DNA of 31,824 bases from a virus: the IMG/VR virus record IMGVR_UViG_3300006737_000101, positions 1 to 31,824 of that record. One strand, written 5' to 3'. Every line of letters begins with the position of its first letter. Position 1 is the first letter of the stretch. Shown here piece after piece: positions 5,446 through 24,893 of this stretch. Made by a program: the position numbers and the translations under genes. Below the pieces are notes generated by a model. That model did not search any database and was not told the DNA's origin. It saw nothing but the letters and a program-made list of their open reading frames with translations.

Positions 5446-5760
5446 TTATTCTCCTAAAATTAGTTTATCAATAAGATCGTCTACGGTATCTATATTCTTT
5501 GAGGCCAAAACATTCATCAACTCATTTAGTTTACGTTGCTGATTGCTATTGTAATCAGTGTCTGGCTTACCGTAAGCCAACATAAGATCATCAAACAATT
5601 GCTTTAAGAACATATTGCTAGGCCACTCAACAGGATTAGCGTCTGTAATCTCAGGCAGTTGTCTAACAGCTTCTTTTAGATCACGCTGTGCATACTTTAA
5701 AATATCCTCAACGTTCTCAACAGTTCGTACCAAGTCGGCTACGTTATCTTTGTTGCTCAT
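5446..5760 (-). CDS. hypothetical protein in the recombination operon
   Basis: 104 aa, helical and polar (DLVRTVENVEDILKYAQRDL at the start, VLASKNIDTVDDLIDKLIL at the end). Its start overlaps the stop of the Sak4-like ATPase gene by 4 bp, so the two are translationally coupled. No motif is recognised. The conserved coupling makes a partner or accessory role with the ATPase possible but unproven. Confidence 0.6.
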   Translation of the reverse strand: MSNKDNVADLVRTVENVEDILKYAQRDLKEAVRQLPEITDANPVEWPSNMFLKQLFDDLMLAYGKPDTDYNSNQQRKLNELMNVLASKNIDTVDDLIDKLILGE

Positions 5761-9109: not shown

Positions 9110-9125
9110 AGCAAGATTCGTGCCA
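9110..9125 (-). promoter_or_regulatory. sigma-54 (-24/-12) promoter P1
   Basis: The minus strand reads TGGCACGAATCTTGCT, which matches the RpoN consensus TGGCACG-N4-TTGCW at every fixed position, with the -24 GG and -12 GC correctly spaced. Counting from the -12 C at 9111, transcription would begin near 9099, 51 nt before the ATG of the 135-aa gene. It lies in the 102-bp gap directly downstream of the sigma-54 activator gene. A TATAAT hexamer just downstream has no -35 partner at 16-18 bp, so sigma-70 use is less likely. Confidence 0.85.
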
Positions 9126-9150
9126 AAGTGCTTGACTTTTAAAACTATTT

Positions 9151-9903
9151 TTAGTACCTTTTAACATTTTCGGGTAGTTCTTTTAAGACTTCATACCGTA
9201 ACATTAACTGCTCTAGCTCACGATAGTTACCCGCTAACTTATCTACTGATAAATGTTTCATAAGAGATTGTATTTCTTTCTTAGACATCTTCTCGTATGC
9301 TGGATGATTCTCTATGTACAGCACAGCATCACCAACTCTTTGCATTAAAGACGTTAGGTGTATGTTGAACGTTGATAGTCTGTAGTATAAGTCTTCTCTA
9401 AATTCTTGCATCTTTATTCGTAAGGGTAGCGATGCACACGTGGCAGCTACGATGCGGCAGTTGGATATACGTGTCTCGTTGTCTCCCACCCTACGGTATG
9501 TACCAAACTGTATGAAACGTAGCAACTTTGCTTGCAAGCCTAGCGGCATGTCACCTATCTCATCGAGGAACAGCGTACCATTCTTGGCATACTCTACGAG
9601 TCCGTCTCGATCTCTGAAAGCGCCTGTGTAACTACCCTTTAAATGACCGAACAACTCACTCTCGAATAACGTATCGGTTACTGCTGTGGTATTGACTGTG
9701 ACAAACTCACCTACACGTGTACCGTGTAGTATGTGCTCTATCAATTCTTTCCCTGTACCAGTAGATCCTGTGATTAAGACAGGCTCTGGACGGTAGCTTA
9801 ACGTGAGCGCATTGGCTAACTGTTTCTGTATGTAGCTATCGTTGGTATTGTAACGCTTGACTCGCGCTGCTAAATCTATTGTGCGTTCTTTTTCTGTGGC
9901 CAT
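9151..9903 (-). CDS. phage-encoded sigma-54 activator (AAA+ enhancer-binding-protein core)
   Basis: 250 aa, essentially only the sigma-54 interaction AAA+ domain. Walker A GSTGTGKE is at 46-53, then FESELFGHLKG leads into the sigma-54-contacting L1 loop GSYTGA at 90-95 (canonical GAFTGA). Walker B is TLFLDE at 110-115, RIVAAT at 150-155, the arginine-finger segment FREDLYYRL at 168-176, and a sensor-II-like GNYRELEQ near 224-231. In this family ATP hydrolysis remodels the closed RpoN-RNA polymerase complex so that it melts the promoter. Typical members are 330-500 aa with a receiver, PAS or GAF domain and a C-terminal Fis-type helix-turn-helix. Here the N-terminus is only about 20 residues and the protein ends about 20 residues after the sensor II region, so both are missing. 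HTH-less members such as FlgR and CtcC act from solution. It is the last gene of the operon from the 11445-11473 promoter, overlaps its upstream neighbour by 28 bp, and sits beside a consensus sigma-54 promoter. Confidence 0.9.
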   Translation of the reverse strand: MATEKERTIDLAARVKRYNTNDSYIQKQLANALTLSYRPEPVLITGSTGTGKELIEHILHGTRVGEFVTVNTTAVTDTLFESELFGHLKGSYTGAFRDRDGLVEYAKNGTLFLDEIGDMPLGLQAKLLRFIQFGTYRRVGDNETRISNCRIVAATCASLPLRIKMQEFREDLYYRLSTFNIHLTSLMQRVGDAVLYIENHPAYEKMSKKEIQSLMKHLSVDKLAGNYRELEQLMLRYEVLKELPENVKRY

Positions 9904-10573: not shown

Positions 10574-10845
10574 TTTTCTTGTATGTTAGAAACTGCTGTA
10601 AGTATCTTAGTAAGTTCTTCAGGTGATACATGTTCCATAACAGTGTCACACTTTTGCACGACACTTAAATCCATAAACTCTTTGTACTCGTACCACTTAT
10701 TATCTTTATCCCATATAGCTACCTCTGCTGTAGACTTGCCACTATCGCAGTGGTTGCCAGTTCTCCAGTGTACGCTGACTGTAAATTTGTTAGACGGAAA
10801 CGTTATGTAAAAGCCGTCAGTCGTAGAATCATAGGCGTTTGTCAT
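10570..10845 (-). CDS. hypothetical protein, 91 aa
   Basis: Starting at the ATG at 10845, which overlaps the TGA of the upstream gene (ATGA) and has GGGAGGG about 6 nt upstream, gives a 91-aa protein beginning MTNAYDSTTDGFYITFPSNK. A longer frame reaching 10929 exists, but its first 28 residues lie inside the upstream gene and are basic and unlike the rest, so I reject that start. The protein looks beta-rich (FTVSVHWRTGNHC, EVAIWDKDNKWYEYKEF) and has no recognised family. Confidence 0.65.
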   Translation of the reverse strand: MTNAYDSTTDGFYITFPSNKFTVSVHWRTGNHCDSGKSTAEVAIWDKDNKWYEYKEFMDLSVVQKCDTVMEHVSPEELTKILTAVSNIQEK

Positions 10846-11378
10846 AGCTGTCCCTCCCTTAACATAACATCTACATTTTCTGTGAACCAGTAAGGCGCAC
10901 CGTAACCTAGACGTTCTGAGTGTGACCACTTGGCAAAGCGTTTCTTAGCTGTACGATAGTAACGACGATAGCCCATGACAGGATTGTCCAGTACGAAACA
11001 GCGATCATGGAAATCACCGAAGCATTGTGGATGTTCTGTTAGCTCAGTGTGTTTAAATGTTAGAGTACTCTTCCAAGTATCACACCACTTTATAACACTC
11101 TCACTTGCATGTTGTACGATATCACAGCCGTAACGTTTAGTGTACTCTGCGCATAACTCGTTGGCATGTTCGATAAGCCACTTGTAGTTGGCTAAGCTAT
11201 GCCTAGCCCATTGCGTACATGGATGGTTGTAATGGACACGCTTGTATGGTGGGTTGTCCATAGGATCGTAGGCTGCGCATAACATCTGCGCTGATTCGAG
11301 AGGCATCTTAACGATATGCTTATCGCATAGCATACGTGCTGCTACCTTGGGGCTTGGGTGAACTACGAATATATTCAT
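10842..11378 (-). CDS. conserved phage protein of unknown function (MNIF...DKHIVKM...ESAQ type)
   Basis: 178 aa, beginning MNIFVVHPSPKVAARMLCDK and continuing HIVKMPLESAQMLCAAYDP. Conserved-looking His, Cys, Trp and Arg residues follow (NHPCTQWARHSLANYKWL; GYRRYYRTAKKRFAKW). I recognise this as a widespread, uncharacterised protein type of marine and freshwater phages; no enzyme activity is established to my knowledge. It is the first gene after the sigma-70 promoter at 11445-11473, with a roughly 55-nt A-rich leader and no Shine-Dalgarno, so it heads the operon that ends in the sigma-54 activator. Confidence 0.7.
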   Translation of the reverse strand: MNIFVVHPSPKVAARMLCDKHIVKMPLESAQMLCAAYDPMDNPPYKRVHYNHPCTQWARHSLANYKWLIEHANELCAEYTKRYGCDIVQHASESVIKWCDTWKSTLTFKHTELTEHPQCFGDFHDRCFVLDNPVMGYRRYYRTAKKRFAKWSHSERLGYGAPYWFTENVDVMLREGQL

Positions 11379-15347: not shown

Positions 15348-15446
15348 ATGATGCACGACTACGAACTATAACCCTCTCTGAAAAAATGACCTCTCAAACT
15401 TTTTGCTTAGAAGATGCAAAGCGCCCTGTGCAAAACACTCAGTATA

Positions 15447-15462
15447 TGGCATGATTATTGCT
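15447..15462 (+). promoter_or_regulatory. sigma-54-type (-24/-12) promoter P2 for the late operon
   Basis: TGGCATGATTATTGCT matches TGGCAYG-N4-TTGCW with exact GG/GC spacing. Transcription would start near 15473, in the gap before the 904-aa gene and the packaging and head operon. The bases after it (TTGTAATATAGGTAT) resemble those after P1 (TTTATAATAGGTAT), which argues that both are used by the same machinery. Confidence 0.78.
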
Positions 15463-23174: not shown

Positions 23175-23188
23175 AAGGCTTGTTATAT

Positions 23189-23204
23189 TGGCATAGTTCT
23201 TGCT
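23189..23204 (+). promoter_or_regulatory. sigma-54-type (-24/-12) promoter P3 for the capsid gene
   Basis: TGGCATAGTTCTTGCT has the -24 GG and -12 GC with the same spacing as P1 and P2, deviating from TGGCACG-N4-TTGCW only in the C-to-T and G-to-A bases between them. It lies 15 bp after the scaffold stop codon, with start predicted near 23215. It gives the capsid gene a private promoter, matching the private terminator at 24854-24893. Confidence 0.75.
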
Positions 23205-23214
23205 ATACTATAAA

Positions 23215-23346
23215 CGTGCTTCGATATGGGTAAGGGCATACCCCTTTGTTAGGGAAACTTAACATTGCTGAAATAATGCTTCTATTGGCGAAGGGCATCG
23301 CAGCGTAAGGAGGAACGCGCTGAGATGTTCTTCGCTTTTGTTTTTT
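23215..23346 (+). ncRNA. structured leader RNA or small RNA before the capsid gene
   Basis: From the predicted P3 start the RNA holds a small hairpin (GGGTA-6 nt-TACCC, 23228-23243) and then a long hairpin at 23288-23335 with 17 pairs, two of them G-U, and one mismatch. A 12-nt loop (UAAGGAGGAACG) follows the left arm, and TTTTGTTTTTT comes after the stem. AAGGGCAT occurs at both 23232-23239 and 23291-23298, and either copy can pair with the right-arm ATGTTCTT (23325-23332), so two structures compete. Two mini-frames exist: MGKGIPLC (23226-23252) and MFFAFVF (23325-23348, after the AGGAGG in the loop). It may be an attenuated leader of the capsid mRNA or an abundant small RNA. Confidence 0.6.
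23288..23346 (+). terminator. terminator-like hairpin in the capsid leader
   Basis: GCGAAGGGCATCGCAGCG (23288-23305) pairs with CGCTGAGATGTTCTTCGC (23318-23335), followed by TTTT, G and TTTTTT. It lies between the P3 start and the capsid ATG, so if it worked fully the P3 transcript would be only about 130 nt long. The SD-like AAGGAGG is in its loop. Confidence 0.6.
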
Positions 23347-23374
23347 AAACACGATAAAATAATTATAAAATATT

Positions 23375-24838
23375 ATGCCTAGTTCAGTAACAGCAGCATC
23401 GGTAGCTAATGCCGCTGCTGATGCCGCCAGTCCAACTGGTGGTAATTTTAAGAAGCTAGATTTTTACCTAGCTAAAAACGAGGTTGCCCTTTATCCGAAG
23501 TGGAATGTGTATGATACACTTTTTGGTTCTATTAAATGGCAACCTAATATGGGAAATACCCTAACGGGTACAACTCCAACGCCGTCTCCGATACTTCGTA
23601 CGACCTTTATGCCAGAAGTTCTTACAGCGTATCCGAAGAAAGATCAGTTCACAGTTGGTGAGCGCACGGAAGACGCTTCTCTCGGTATGCACCGATTTGA
23701 GTCTAACCGTTTCCGCTTCCTAAATAACTTTGAAGCTTTCTGGAGAGATCATTTAAGCTACGCTCAAGCTGACATTGTACGTCAGATTCAGTGCGCTAAT
23801 AACGTTTTCATCCGTACGCTAATGTACTACCAAGCACCAGATTCTTATGTTGCTGGTCAAGGTCTTAGCTCACAAATTGCTCATACATCTACTATGAATA
23901 AGCAATCACTGAGCCAAGCTCAGATGCGTTTGATTGAAAACGGTTCTGATGACATTACTGGTACTGACATTACTGGTAAAGCTATGTCTATCAGTCATGG
24001 TACTGGTCAAAATCATCGTAAAGATTGTACTGTCGGTGGTGCTGGGGATGGTGACGTTCCTGCAGGTGCTTTAACTTTGAAAGAAATTTTCAAAGCTATG
24101 CTTGTACTGCAAGAAGATATTCAAGCGCCTACATTTGATCGCGTTTACAATGTACCAAAAACTTCTGAAATGGTTAAGGGCAAATACGTTCTTATCTGTT
24201 CTACAGAAGCTTGGGCTTCGTTGTTGTGGGATAGCAACTTACGTACTGATAGCACTTCACTATCAGCCGCAGGTACTACTCAACTCGCTCCAGCTAACAT
24301 GAACCTTCTGCAAGATGGTTTTGCTGGTGACTTGTTTGGTAAGGTGACTGCTAAGTTTGATCCGTATCCATTACGTTTCGATCATAACGGTGACTTTGTT
24401 GTACCGCAAAAGATTGATAGTACAACTGGTAAAATCATCCCAAACCCATCATACACAGCTATAGGCCTCGGTAGCGGTACTGATGCTAATGATGGTTCCA
24501 CGAATGATAAAGGTAACGCCTCTTACGAGATTGCGTTCTTGGTAGGTGCTGATGCGTTTAAGACTCTACAAGTTGGCCCACCGCCAAAAGAGTTTGCGTC
24601 TAAAAACATGAGTGCTAAGAAGTTCTATGATATGAAATGGAATGGTGAGGTTCACCTTACTGACCAATTCTTGATACCAACTGGTAGCGGATCAGCACCA
24701 TTGTCTGATGCTGCTGGTAGTGAACTTAATACTTATGGTGACTACTTGAAGTTTATCTCACAGGCTATTATCGGCGGTATCGCTGGTGATGCACGTTACT
24801 GTTTGCCTATATACTTTAAGCGTCGTCGTACGTCATAA
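23375..24838 (+). CDS. major capsid protein
   Basis: 487 aa. Located between scaffold and a strong terminator, preceded by its own sigma-54-type promoter; the layout of the most abundant virion protein. The N-terminus is Ala/Ser-rich (SSVTAASVANAAADAASPTG) and followed by KLDFYLAKNEVALYPKWNVY. Mid-protein FNNFEAFWRDHLSYAQADIVRQ-type helical and beta segments agree with an HK97-like fold, and the C-terminus contains GEVHLTDQFLIPTGSG. I could not assign a named capsid family with certainty; the N4-like type is one possibility. The leader is A/T-rich with no Shine-Dalgarno at the ATG. Confidence 0.82.
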   Translation: MPSSVTAASVANAAADAASPTGGNFKKLDFYLAKNEVALYPKWNVYDTLFGSIKWQPNMGNTLTGTTPTPSPILRTTFMPEVLTAYPKKDQFTVGERTEDASLGMHRFESNRFRFLNNFEAFWRDHLSYAQADIVRQIQCANNVFIRTLMYYQAPDSYVAGQGLSSQIAHTSTMNKQSLSQAQMRLIENGSDDITGTDITGKAMSISHGTGQNHRKDCTVGGAGDGDVPAGALTLKEIFKAMLVLQEDIQAPTFDRVYNVPKTSEMVKGKYVLICSTEAWASLLWDSNLRTDSTSLSAAGTTQLAPANMNLLQDGFAGDLFGKVTAKFDPYPLRFDHNGDFVVPQKIDSTTGKIIPNPSYTAIGLGSGTDANDGSTNDKGNASYEIAFLVGADAFKTLQVGPPPKEFASKNMSAKKFYDMKWNGEVHLTDQFLIPTGSGSAPLSDAAGSELNTYGDYLKFISQAIIGGIAGDARYCLPIYFKRRRTS

Positions 24839-24853: not shown

Positions 24854-24893
24854 GTGGAGTAGAGAGTTGTGGTAGCTCTCTACTCCACTTTTT
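24854..24893 (+). terminator. intrinsic terminator after the capsid gene
   Basis: GTGGAGTAGAGAG (24854-24866), 9-nt loop, exact complement CTCTCTACTCCAC (24876-24888), then TTTTT. A 13-bp perfect stem with U-tract, 16 bp past the stop. It isolates the capsid mRNA; the fibre genes after it need read-through or an unseen promoter. Confidence 0.92.

Follow-up and report, generated by a model that had tools for sequence, protein, structure and literature searches.

A conserved twin-hairpin leader between a sigma-54-type promoter and the probable capsid gene of uncultured bacterial viruses

In the virus record IMGVR_UViG_3300006737_000101, a structured leader lies between a promoter, P3, and the gene for the probable major capsid protein, which raises the question of what such an RNA does for the gene behind it. 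We address this question in the window, meaning the whole stretch of 31,824 nucleotides that was analyzed, and in its relatives. A preliminary description of the locus proposed either an attenuated capsid mRNA or an abundant small RNA that titrates the anti-Shine-Dalgarno (anti-SD) sequence, and contained neither the sigma-54-type character of the promoter nor the phage-encoded activator. The coordinates and features that it named are all present in the sequence as placed, including AAGGGCAT at 23232-23239 and 23291-23298, each of which can form 8 pairs, two of them G-U, with ATGTTCTT (23325-23332). Its interpretation is partly supported: a regulated capsid leader holds up, with hairpins that exclude each other and a plausible intrinsic terminator, but the conserved feature is a tandem unit and not the part that it stressed. 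The features of the window are collected in Table 1.

Table 1. Features of the window that bear on the capsid leader
Feature	Position	Strand	Basis or conservation
Sigma-54-type promoter P1, 3' of activator gene and before the 8641-9048 gene	9110..9126	-	position kept in L461/L462
AAA+-only sigma-54 activator (GSYTGA), without receiver or HTH	9151..9903	-	PF00158, E 2.9e-52; PDB relatives NtrC/FleQ
Sigma-54-type promoter P2 (ATGGCATGATTATTGCT), ahead of structural operon	15446..15462	+	sequence match
Capsid promoter P3, sigma-54 -24/-12 type, TTGGCATAGTTCTTGCT	23188..23204	+	exact consensus match
Box 1, GCTTCG (family consensus GCYNCU)	23218..23223	+	box before each loop in relatives
Hairpin H1, GGGT-AAGGGCAT-ACCC	23228..23243	+	loop nearly invariant, stem co-varies
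Box 2, GCTTCT	23278..23283	+	box before each loop in relatives
Hairpin H2, GCG-AAGGGCAT-CGC	23288..23301	+	loop nearly invariant, stem co-varies
Clade-specific putative intrinsic terminator: GCGAAGGGCATC (23288-23299) and GATGTTCTTCGC (23324-23335), then TTTTGTTTTTT	23288..23346	+	fold energy
Purine-loop element: GCGT/ACGC stem, GAGGAAC in loop complementary to GTTCTTC (23327-23333)	23303..23333	+	by inspection
Probable major capsid protein gene, 487 aa, no SD	23375..24838	+	homologs in 59 viral loci
Strong terminator just 3' of capsid, 16 pairs and T run	24854..24888	+	similar in marine clades

Each copy of AAGGGCAT forms the loop of its own local hairpin (as RNA, GGGU-AAGGGCAU-ACCC and GCG-AAGGGCAU-CGC), with a GCUUC box 5' of each. 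Six IMG/VR contigs whose capsid homologs are 67-78% identical share this leader, and there GGGTAAGGGCATACCC and GGCGAAGGGCATCGC appear as two hairpins with an identical loop. A wider capsid search combined with a motif-pattern search brought in many further phages, with capsids at least as distant as about 30% identity among the matches listed. Structurally, the unit is made up of the box GCYNCU, a spacer and a stem of 3-5 pairs around the loop AAGGGCAU, and is present in two copies in nearly all leaders, spaced roughly 16 to 50 nt apart; one lineage (L394) has a single copy. The loop rarely reads AAGAGCAU, while AGUGGGCAU, AAUGGGCAU and similar variants occur in L414, L448 and L466. In compact clades the predicted 5' end of the transcript is only a few nucleotides from the first unit, and several clades have a further hairpin 5' of it.

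Compensatory base changes in relatives, the check attached to the original proposal, turned out strongly positive for the AAGGGCAU hairpins. In an alignment of 22 leaders, whose loci were picked by capsid or activator similarity only and not by the motif, 132 of 132 stem cells are paired (20-47% in slid controls), and 48 two-sided compensatory changes are spread over all 6 inner pairs. The covariation score is 1.08 versus 0.22 for shuffles and at most 0.12 for slid controls, and all four Watson-Crick pairs occur at the stem positions of the 63 distinct units. Model R1 also recovers leaders outside its training set, at 53 bits in L392, 46 bits in L393 and 31 bits in the single hairpin of L394; these are activator-bearing phages collected by activator similarity alone, and their leaders precede capsid homologs. 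At 28 bits or more, R1 finds the motif in 28 of the 31 capsid loci searched. Box and loop possibly form a 3-bp GCY:RGC pseudoknot, for which informative changes are few (U-G 71, C-G 9, U-A 2 and C-A 0, with about 0.2 C-A expected by chance). Stem and spacer lengths are weakly linked (rho 0.33, p 0.008, uncorrected for relatedness).

Several other accounts of these repeats and matches were rejected. The arms vary around a fixed centre, the opposite of what is expected of a palindromic binding site at the DNA level, and pairing between loop and capsid start codon (GGCAU:AUGCC) does not hold in clades whose capsid gene begins AUGGC and is explained by Met-Pro/Met-Ala starts. Genome matches in Halomonas and the like, among the matches listed, have no stems and are consistent with coding sequence; those in L395-L399 (about 14 bits) are antisense to an AAA_24-like gene, and the tandem matches in L061/L102 and L128/L167 are repeats without box or promoter. 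A search of the window against Rfam 15 gave no gathering hit, and a permissive E value gave three weak matches, all below the gathering score. The leader RNA is a strongly supported structured RNA and, with no match in Rfam 15 or the open-access papers searched, apparently a new one.

The promoter reads TTGGCA-N7-TGC, with the GG at -24 and the GC at -12 of TGGCAYR-N4-TTGCW. Among 48 distinct leaders of phages identified via capsid similarity, 43 carry TGGCA-N7-TGC upstream of the capsid gene (0.05% in shuffles), 38-100 nt 5' of loop 1; in L447 the sigma-54 site is further upstream. Across 39 records there are 59 exact sigma-54 sites and none for the reversed pattern, and sigma-70-like matches near P3, one of which overlaps it, do not exceed the number expected by chance. 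We class P3 as a probable sigma-54-type promoter whose dependence on RpoN and an AAA+ activator in vivo is predicted. The predicted P1 and P2 transcripts both start with a similar AATA(TA)GGTAT stretch. The gene right behind P1 (8641-9048, minus strand) encodes a 135-aa protein that has no PHROG or Pfam match and is similar to the one encoded behind the corresponding promoter of L461/L462.

A candidate for that activator is encoded in the window itself, as a PF00158 protein of 250 aa (P0002) that carries the bEBP motifs GSTGTGKE, FLDEIG, GSYTGA and REDLYYRL, corresponding to Walker A and B, a GAFTGA-like loop and the arginine finger. The protein stops after the AAA+ lid, Pfam gave no HTH match in it, and its distant phage homologs share this minimal architecture and end at about the same place; we file it, by its sequence, as a likely HTH-less bEBP member, a type already known. 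The activator is found in 26 of 39 motif-bearing records, and all 13 records that lack it are fragments of less than 25 kb, virus records being fragments in general. It is present in every tested motif-bearing record of at least 25 kb, plus one of 23 kb. Conversely, 17 activator-bearing records have no strong motif match; 15 of these lack this capsid, and the 2 with a diverged capsid have diverged leaders. A tblastn search of the named-phage collection gave no convincing phage-encoded sigma-54 activator, many matches looking, by their names, like host or bacterial records. Many activator-matching "phage" records (H42-H80) look like mislabelled bacterial chromosome contigs, such as Acinetobacter phage MD-2021a and Salmonella assemblies.

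The capsid assignment is probable and is based on position after terminase, portal-like and scaffold-like genes; the protein itself has no PHROG or Pfam hit. Because a strong terminator lies directly 3' of the capsid gene in the window and in marine clades, P3, leader and capsid gene make up a single-gene unit. No hairpin motif is found downstream of P1 or P2. In the L020 clade, the sigma-54 site after the activator gene is kept and there is none before the capsid gene; both hairpins are nevertheless retained without P3, the first of them overlapping the end of the upstream gene. The RNA thus serves the capsid gene and not the promoter. Taken together, a large group of uncultured bacterial viruses appears to use the host sigma-54 machinery and an activator of its own to turn on the capsid gene. 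As to the host, the best terminase matches are Akkermansia phages at about 31%, which is a hint only. Elsewhere in the window (10842-11378, minus strand) the phage encodes a pyrimidine dimer DNA glycosylase-like protein (PF03013).

The terminator ahead of the capsid gene has a narrower distribution. The long hairpin with a U-rich tail that had been proposed is no chance fold (-29.8 kcal/mol, z = -5.9, none of 200 shuffles as good; z = -3.1 for the whole leader fold). At minimum free energy this GC-rich hairpin, flush with a U tract, has 13+6 pairs around the purine loop and is followed by UUUUGUUUUUU. Positions 23288-23299 serve both H2, as its 5' side, and the terminator, as its 5' arm, which makes the two mutually exclusive. 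Of the leaders scanned, only those of the window and L001-L006 have a terminator with a proper T run ahead of the capsid gene and 3' of the motif; the hairpins of L031/L033 are weaker. Attenuation is therefore plausible within the window clade, where the terminator excludes H2, but the twin hairpins are family-wide and the terminator is not. The idea of a loop that displays an SD sequence fared less well, as the six nearest relatives do not keep AGGAGG (GGAGA, GGAAAG, AGAGG). Its SD-like look is accounted for by pairing of the purine strand with the terminator 3' arm, which can alternatively pair with GAGGAAC (23310-23316). By inspection, the strand changes together with its partner (GAGGAAC/GUUCUUC; GAAAGAC/GUCUUUC), and the pairing is kept across L001-L005 and the L020 clade, which has GAGAG/CUCUC, GGGAGU/ACUCCC and GGAGAU/AUCUCC. 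The 8-codon frame at 23226-23252 does exist (ATG...TAG), but no equivalent short frame is seen at H1 in relatives on inspection.

One full twin-hairpin copy lies in an apparently bacterial contig, CAIWJG010000468.1, from a Verrucomicrobia subdivision 3 MAG (L370:8087-8143, minus strand), and scores 55.8 bits with a model that excludes L370. By inspection it stands behind a sigma-70-like TTGCAC-17-TATTCT, downstream of a Schlafen/AlbA_2 gene; no capsid gene is nearby, and the genes of the contig are ordinary bacterial ones. The copy is the only one in 320 genomes from its order and, above noise, in 289 from its phylum, and so is no conserved host gene; acquisition and a chimaeric contig are both possible. 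Other Verrucomicrobia matches, at 20-26 bits, were rejected as noise, and a capsid profile search of 388 Verrucomicrobiota genomes found none. The same contig carries two Acido-Lenti-1 RNA elements (RF01687) close together on opposite strands, at L370:5361-5406 (minus) and 5507-5552 (plus).

The anatomy and covariation of the units, their occurrence together with promoter and activator and the persistence of the RNA in a clade without P3 point to the leader of a phage sigma-54 capsid unit whose twin recognition units are bound in cis and control the capsid mRNA, a reading that we hold to be about evenly balanced between right and wrong. The phage AAA+-only activator would open the sigma-54 RNA polymerase of the host at P1, P2 and P3, the last of which would be reserved for the capsid gene. 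Transcription is predicted to start near 23215, and the two recognition units would be made almost at once. Each would then be bound in cis by a dedicated factor, perhaps a phage or host RNA-binding protein or, less likely, a small molecule; this factor, like the direction and timing of control, we infer. Binding would decide the fate of the capsid mRNA, either its stability or its translation from a start without an SD. In the window clade, a folded H2 would let polymerase read into the capsid gene, and loss of H2 would lead to a stop at about 130 nt.

Among the alternatives, a processive antitermination element similar to put or nut would work through binding of the hairpins, as they emerge, to RNA polymerase or Nus factors, so that polymerase ignores the terminators in the leader and after the capsid gene. 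Two stem-loops just after a promoter do resemble HK022 putL, the window has terminators in both places, and box plus hairpin recalls the boxA-boxB arrangement. However, the motif is absent after P1 and P2, where long operons start, its position in the L020 clade tracks the capsid start and not a promoter, in many clades no terminator was detected either in the leader or 3' of the capsid gene, and the variable spacing of the units differs from the one compact RNA formed by the two put stems. We consider this unlikely. Protection of the mRNA 5' end, in which the hairpins, being compact and possibly pseudoknotted, act as a block to 5'-to-3' decay or 5'-end-dependent cleavage and give a long-lived capsid mRNA, is in our view also unlikely; it may be a special case of the preferred explanation. 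It suits the closeness of the units to the predicted 5' end in compact clades and their duplication, as of a barrier; in the L020 clade a longer mRNA would be trimmed back to the internal copy, and nucleases would suffice as factors. Yet a nearly invariant 8-nt loop exceeds what a plain stability hairpin needs, and the extra hairpin before the first unit in several clades does not fit.

The reading first proposed, that sigma-54 transcripts end at 23346 and yield an RNA of about 130 nt acting in trans, for example by binding the anti-SD, draws on the strong window-clade terminator and on the free-standing copy with its sigma-70-like promoter in the Verrucomicrobia contig. Since most relatives have no terminator between motif and capsid gene, no separate small RNA is predicted in them; the SD-like loop that would titrate the anti-SD varies, and the conserved motif also occurs in a polycistronic context (L020), which makes this explanation improbable. 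Least probable of all, and by our estimate very much so, is a tandem riboswitch in which each unit binds a small molecule. A nearly invariant loop and box, variable stems, tandem arrangement and 5' position are all what one would look for, but the units always precede a capsid gene without metabolic context, are confined to phages except for one bacterial contig and have no Rfam similarity.

The leader RNA has a tie to the most abundant virion protein and so should expose either an RNA-binding factor or a route of capsid tuning not known before. A phage family with an AAA+-only activator and sigma-54 promoters of its own would be an unfamiliar viral gene-expression switch. More tentatively, and with doubt outweighing belief, the tandem module of GCYNCU box and AAGGGCAU hairpin may mark a phage family that captured host sigma-54, with a dedicated factor gating the capsid gene and a bacterium having acquired a copy that stands alone, perhaps to act as a decoy. 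Nothing on phage-encoded sigma-54 activators or such a capsid leader was found in the open-access literature searched. Cis-acting leader RNAs and HTH-less sigma-54 activators are kinds already known, whereas for this RNA module and its phage setting we found no match.

The closest known counterparts to the activator are bacterial or engineered. The isolated AAA+ domain DctD250 activates sigma-54 promoters without an enhancer (PMC3844500), and FlgR, CtcC and FleT are natural sigma-54 activators that lack receiver and/or HTH (PMC3162934). The activators described here share with these a sigma-54 interaction domain without receiver and/or HTH, but are phage genes. For the leader, the nearest phage parallel is putL of HK022, about 70 nt with two stem-loops; put RNA adopts one compact two-stem fold after early promoters and binds the zinc-binding domain of the RNA polymerase beta' subunit (PMC9378689). 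Both RNAs are phage-encoded, have two stem-loops right after a promoter and presumably act in cis on nascent RNA, but the units described here are separable, have identical loops and variable spacing and occur before the capsid gene only. Gene 10 of phage T7, its capsid gene, likewise forms a strong unit by itself, with a promoter of its own, a special leader in front and a terminator behind. It is transcribed by the phage's single-subunit polymerase and lacks AAGGGCAU units. Qrr and GlmY/GlmZ are sigma-54-dependent regulatory RNAs and, like this leader, structured RNAs directly behind a sigma-54 promoter, in the window clade with a terminator too; they differ in their loops, and the RNA described here is followed by a capsid gene and has no Rfam match. 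Finally, the guanidine-II (mini-ykkC) RNA is made up of two short 5'-leader hairpins with identical conserved ACGR loops. The capsid leader shares this plan, but its loop is AAGGGCAU instead of ACGR, each hairpin comes with an extra GCYNCU box, and the genes that it precedes encode capsids.
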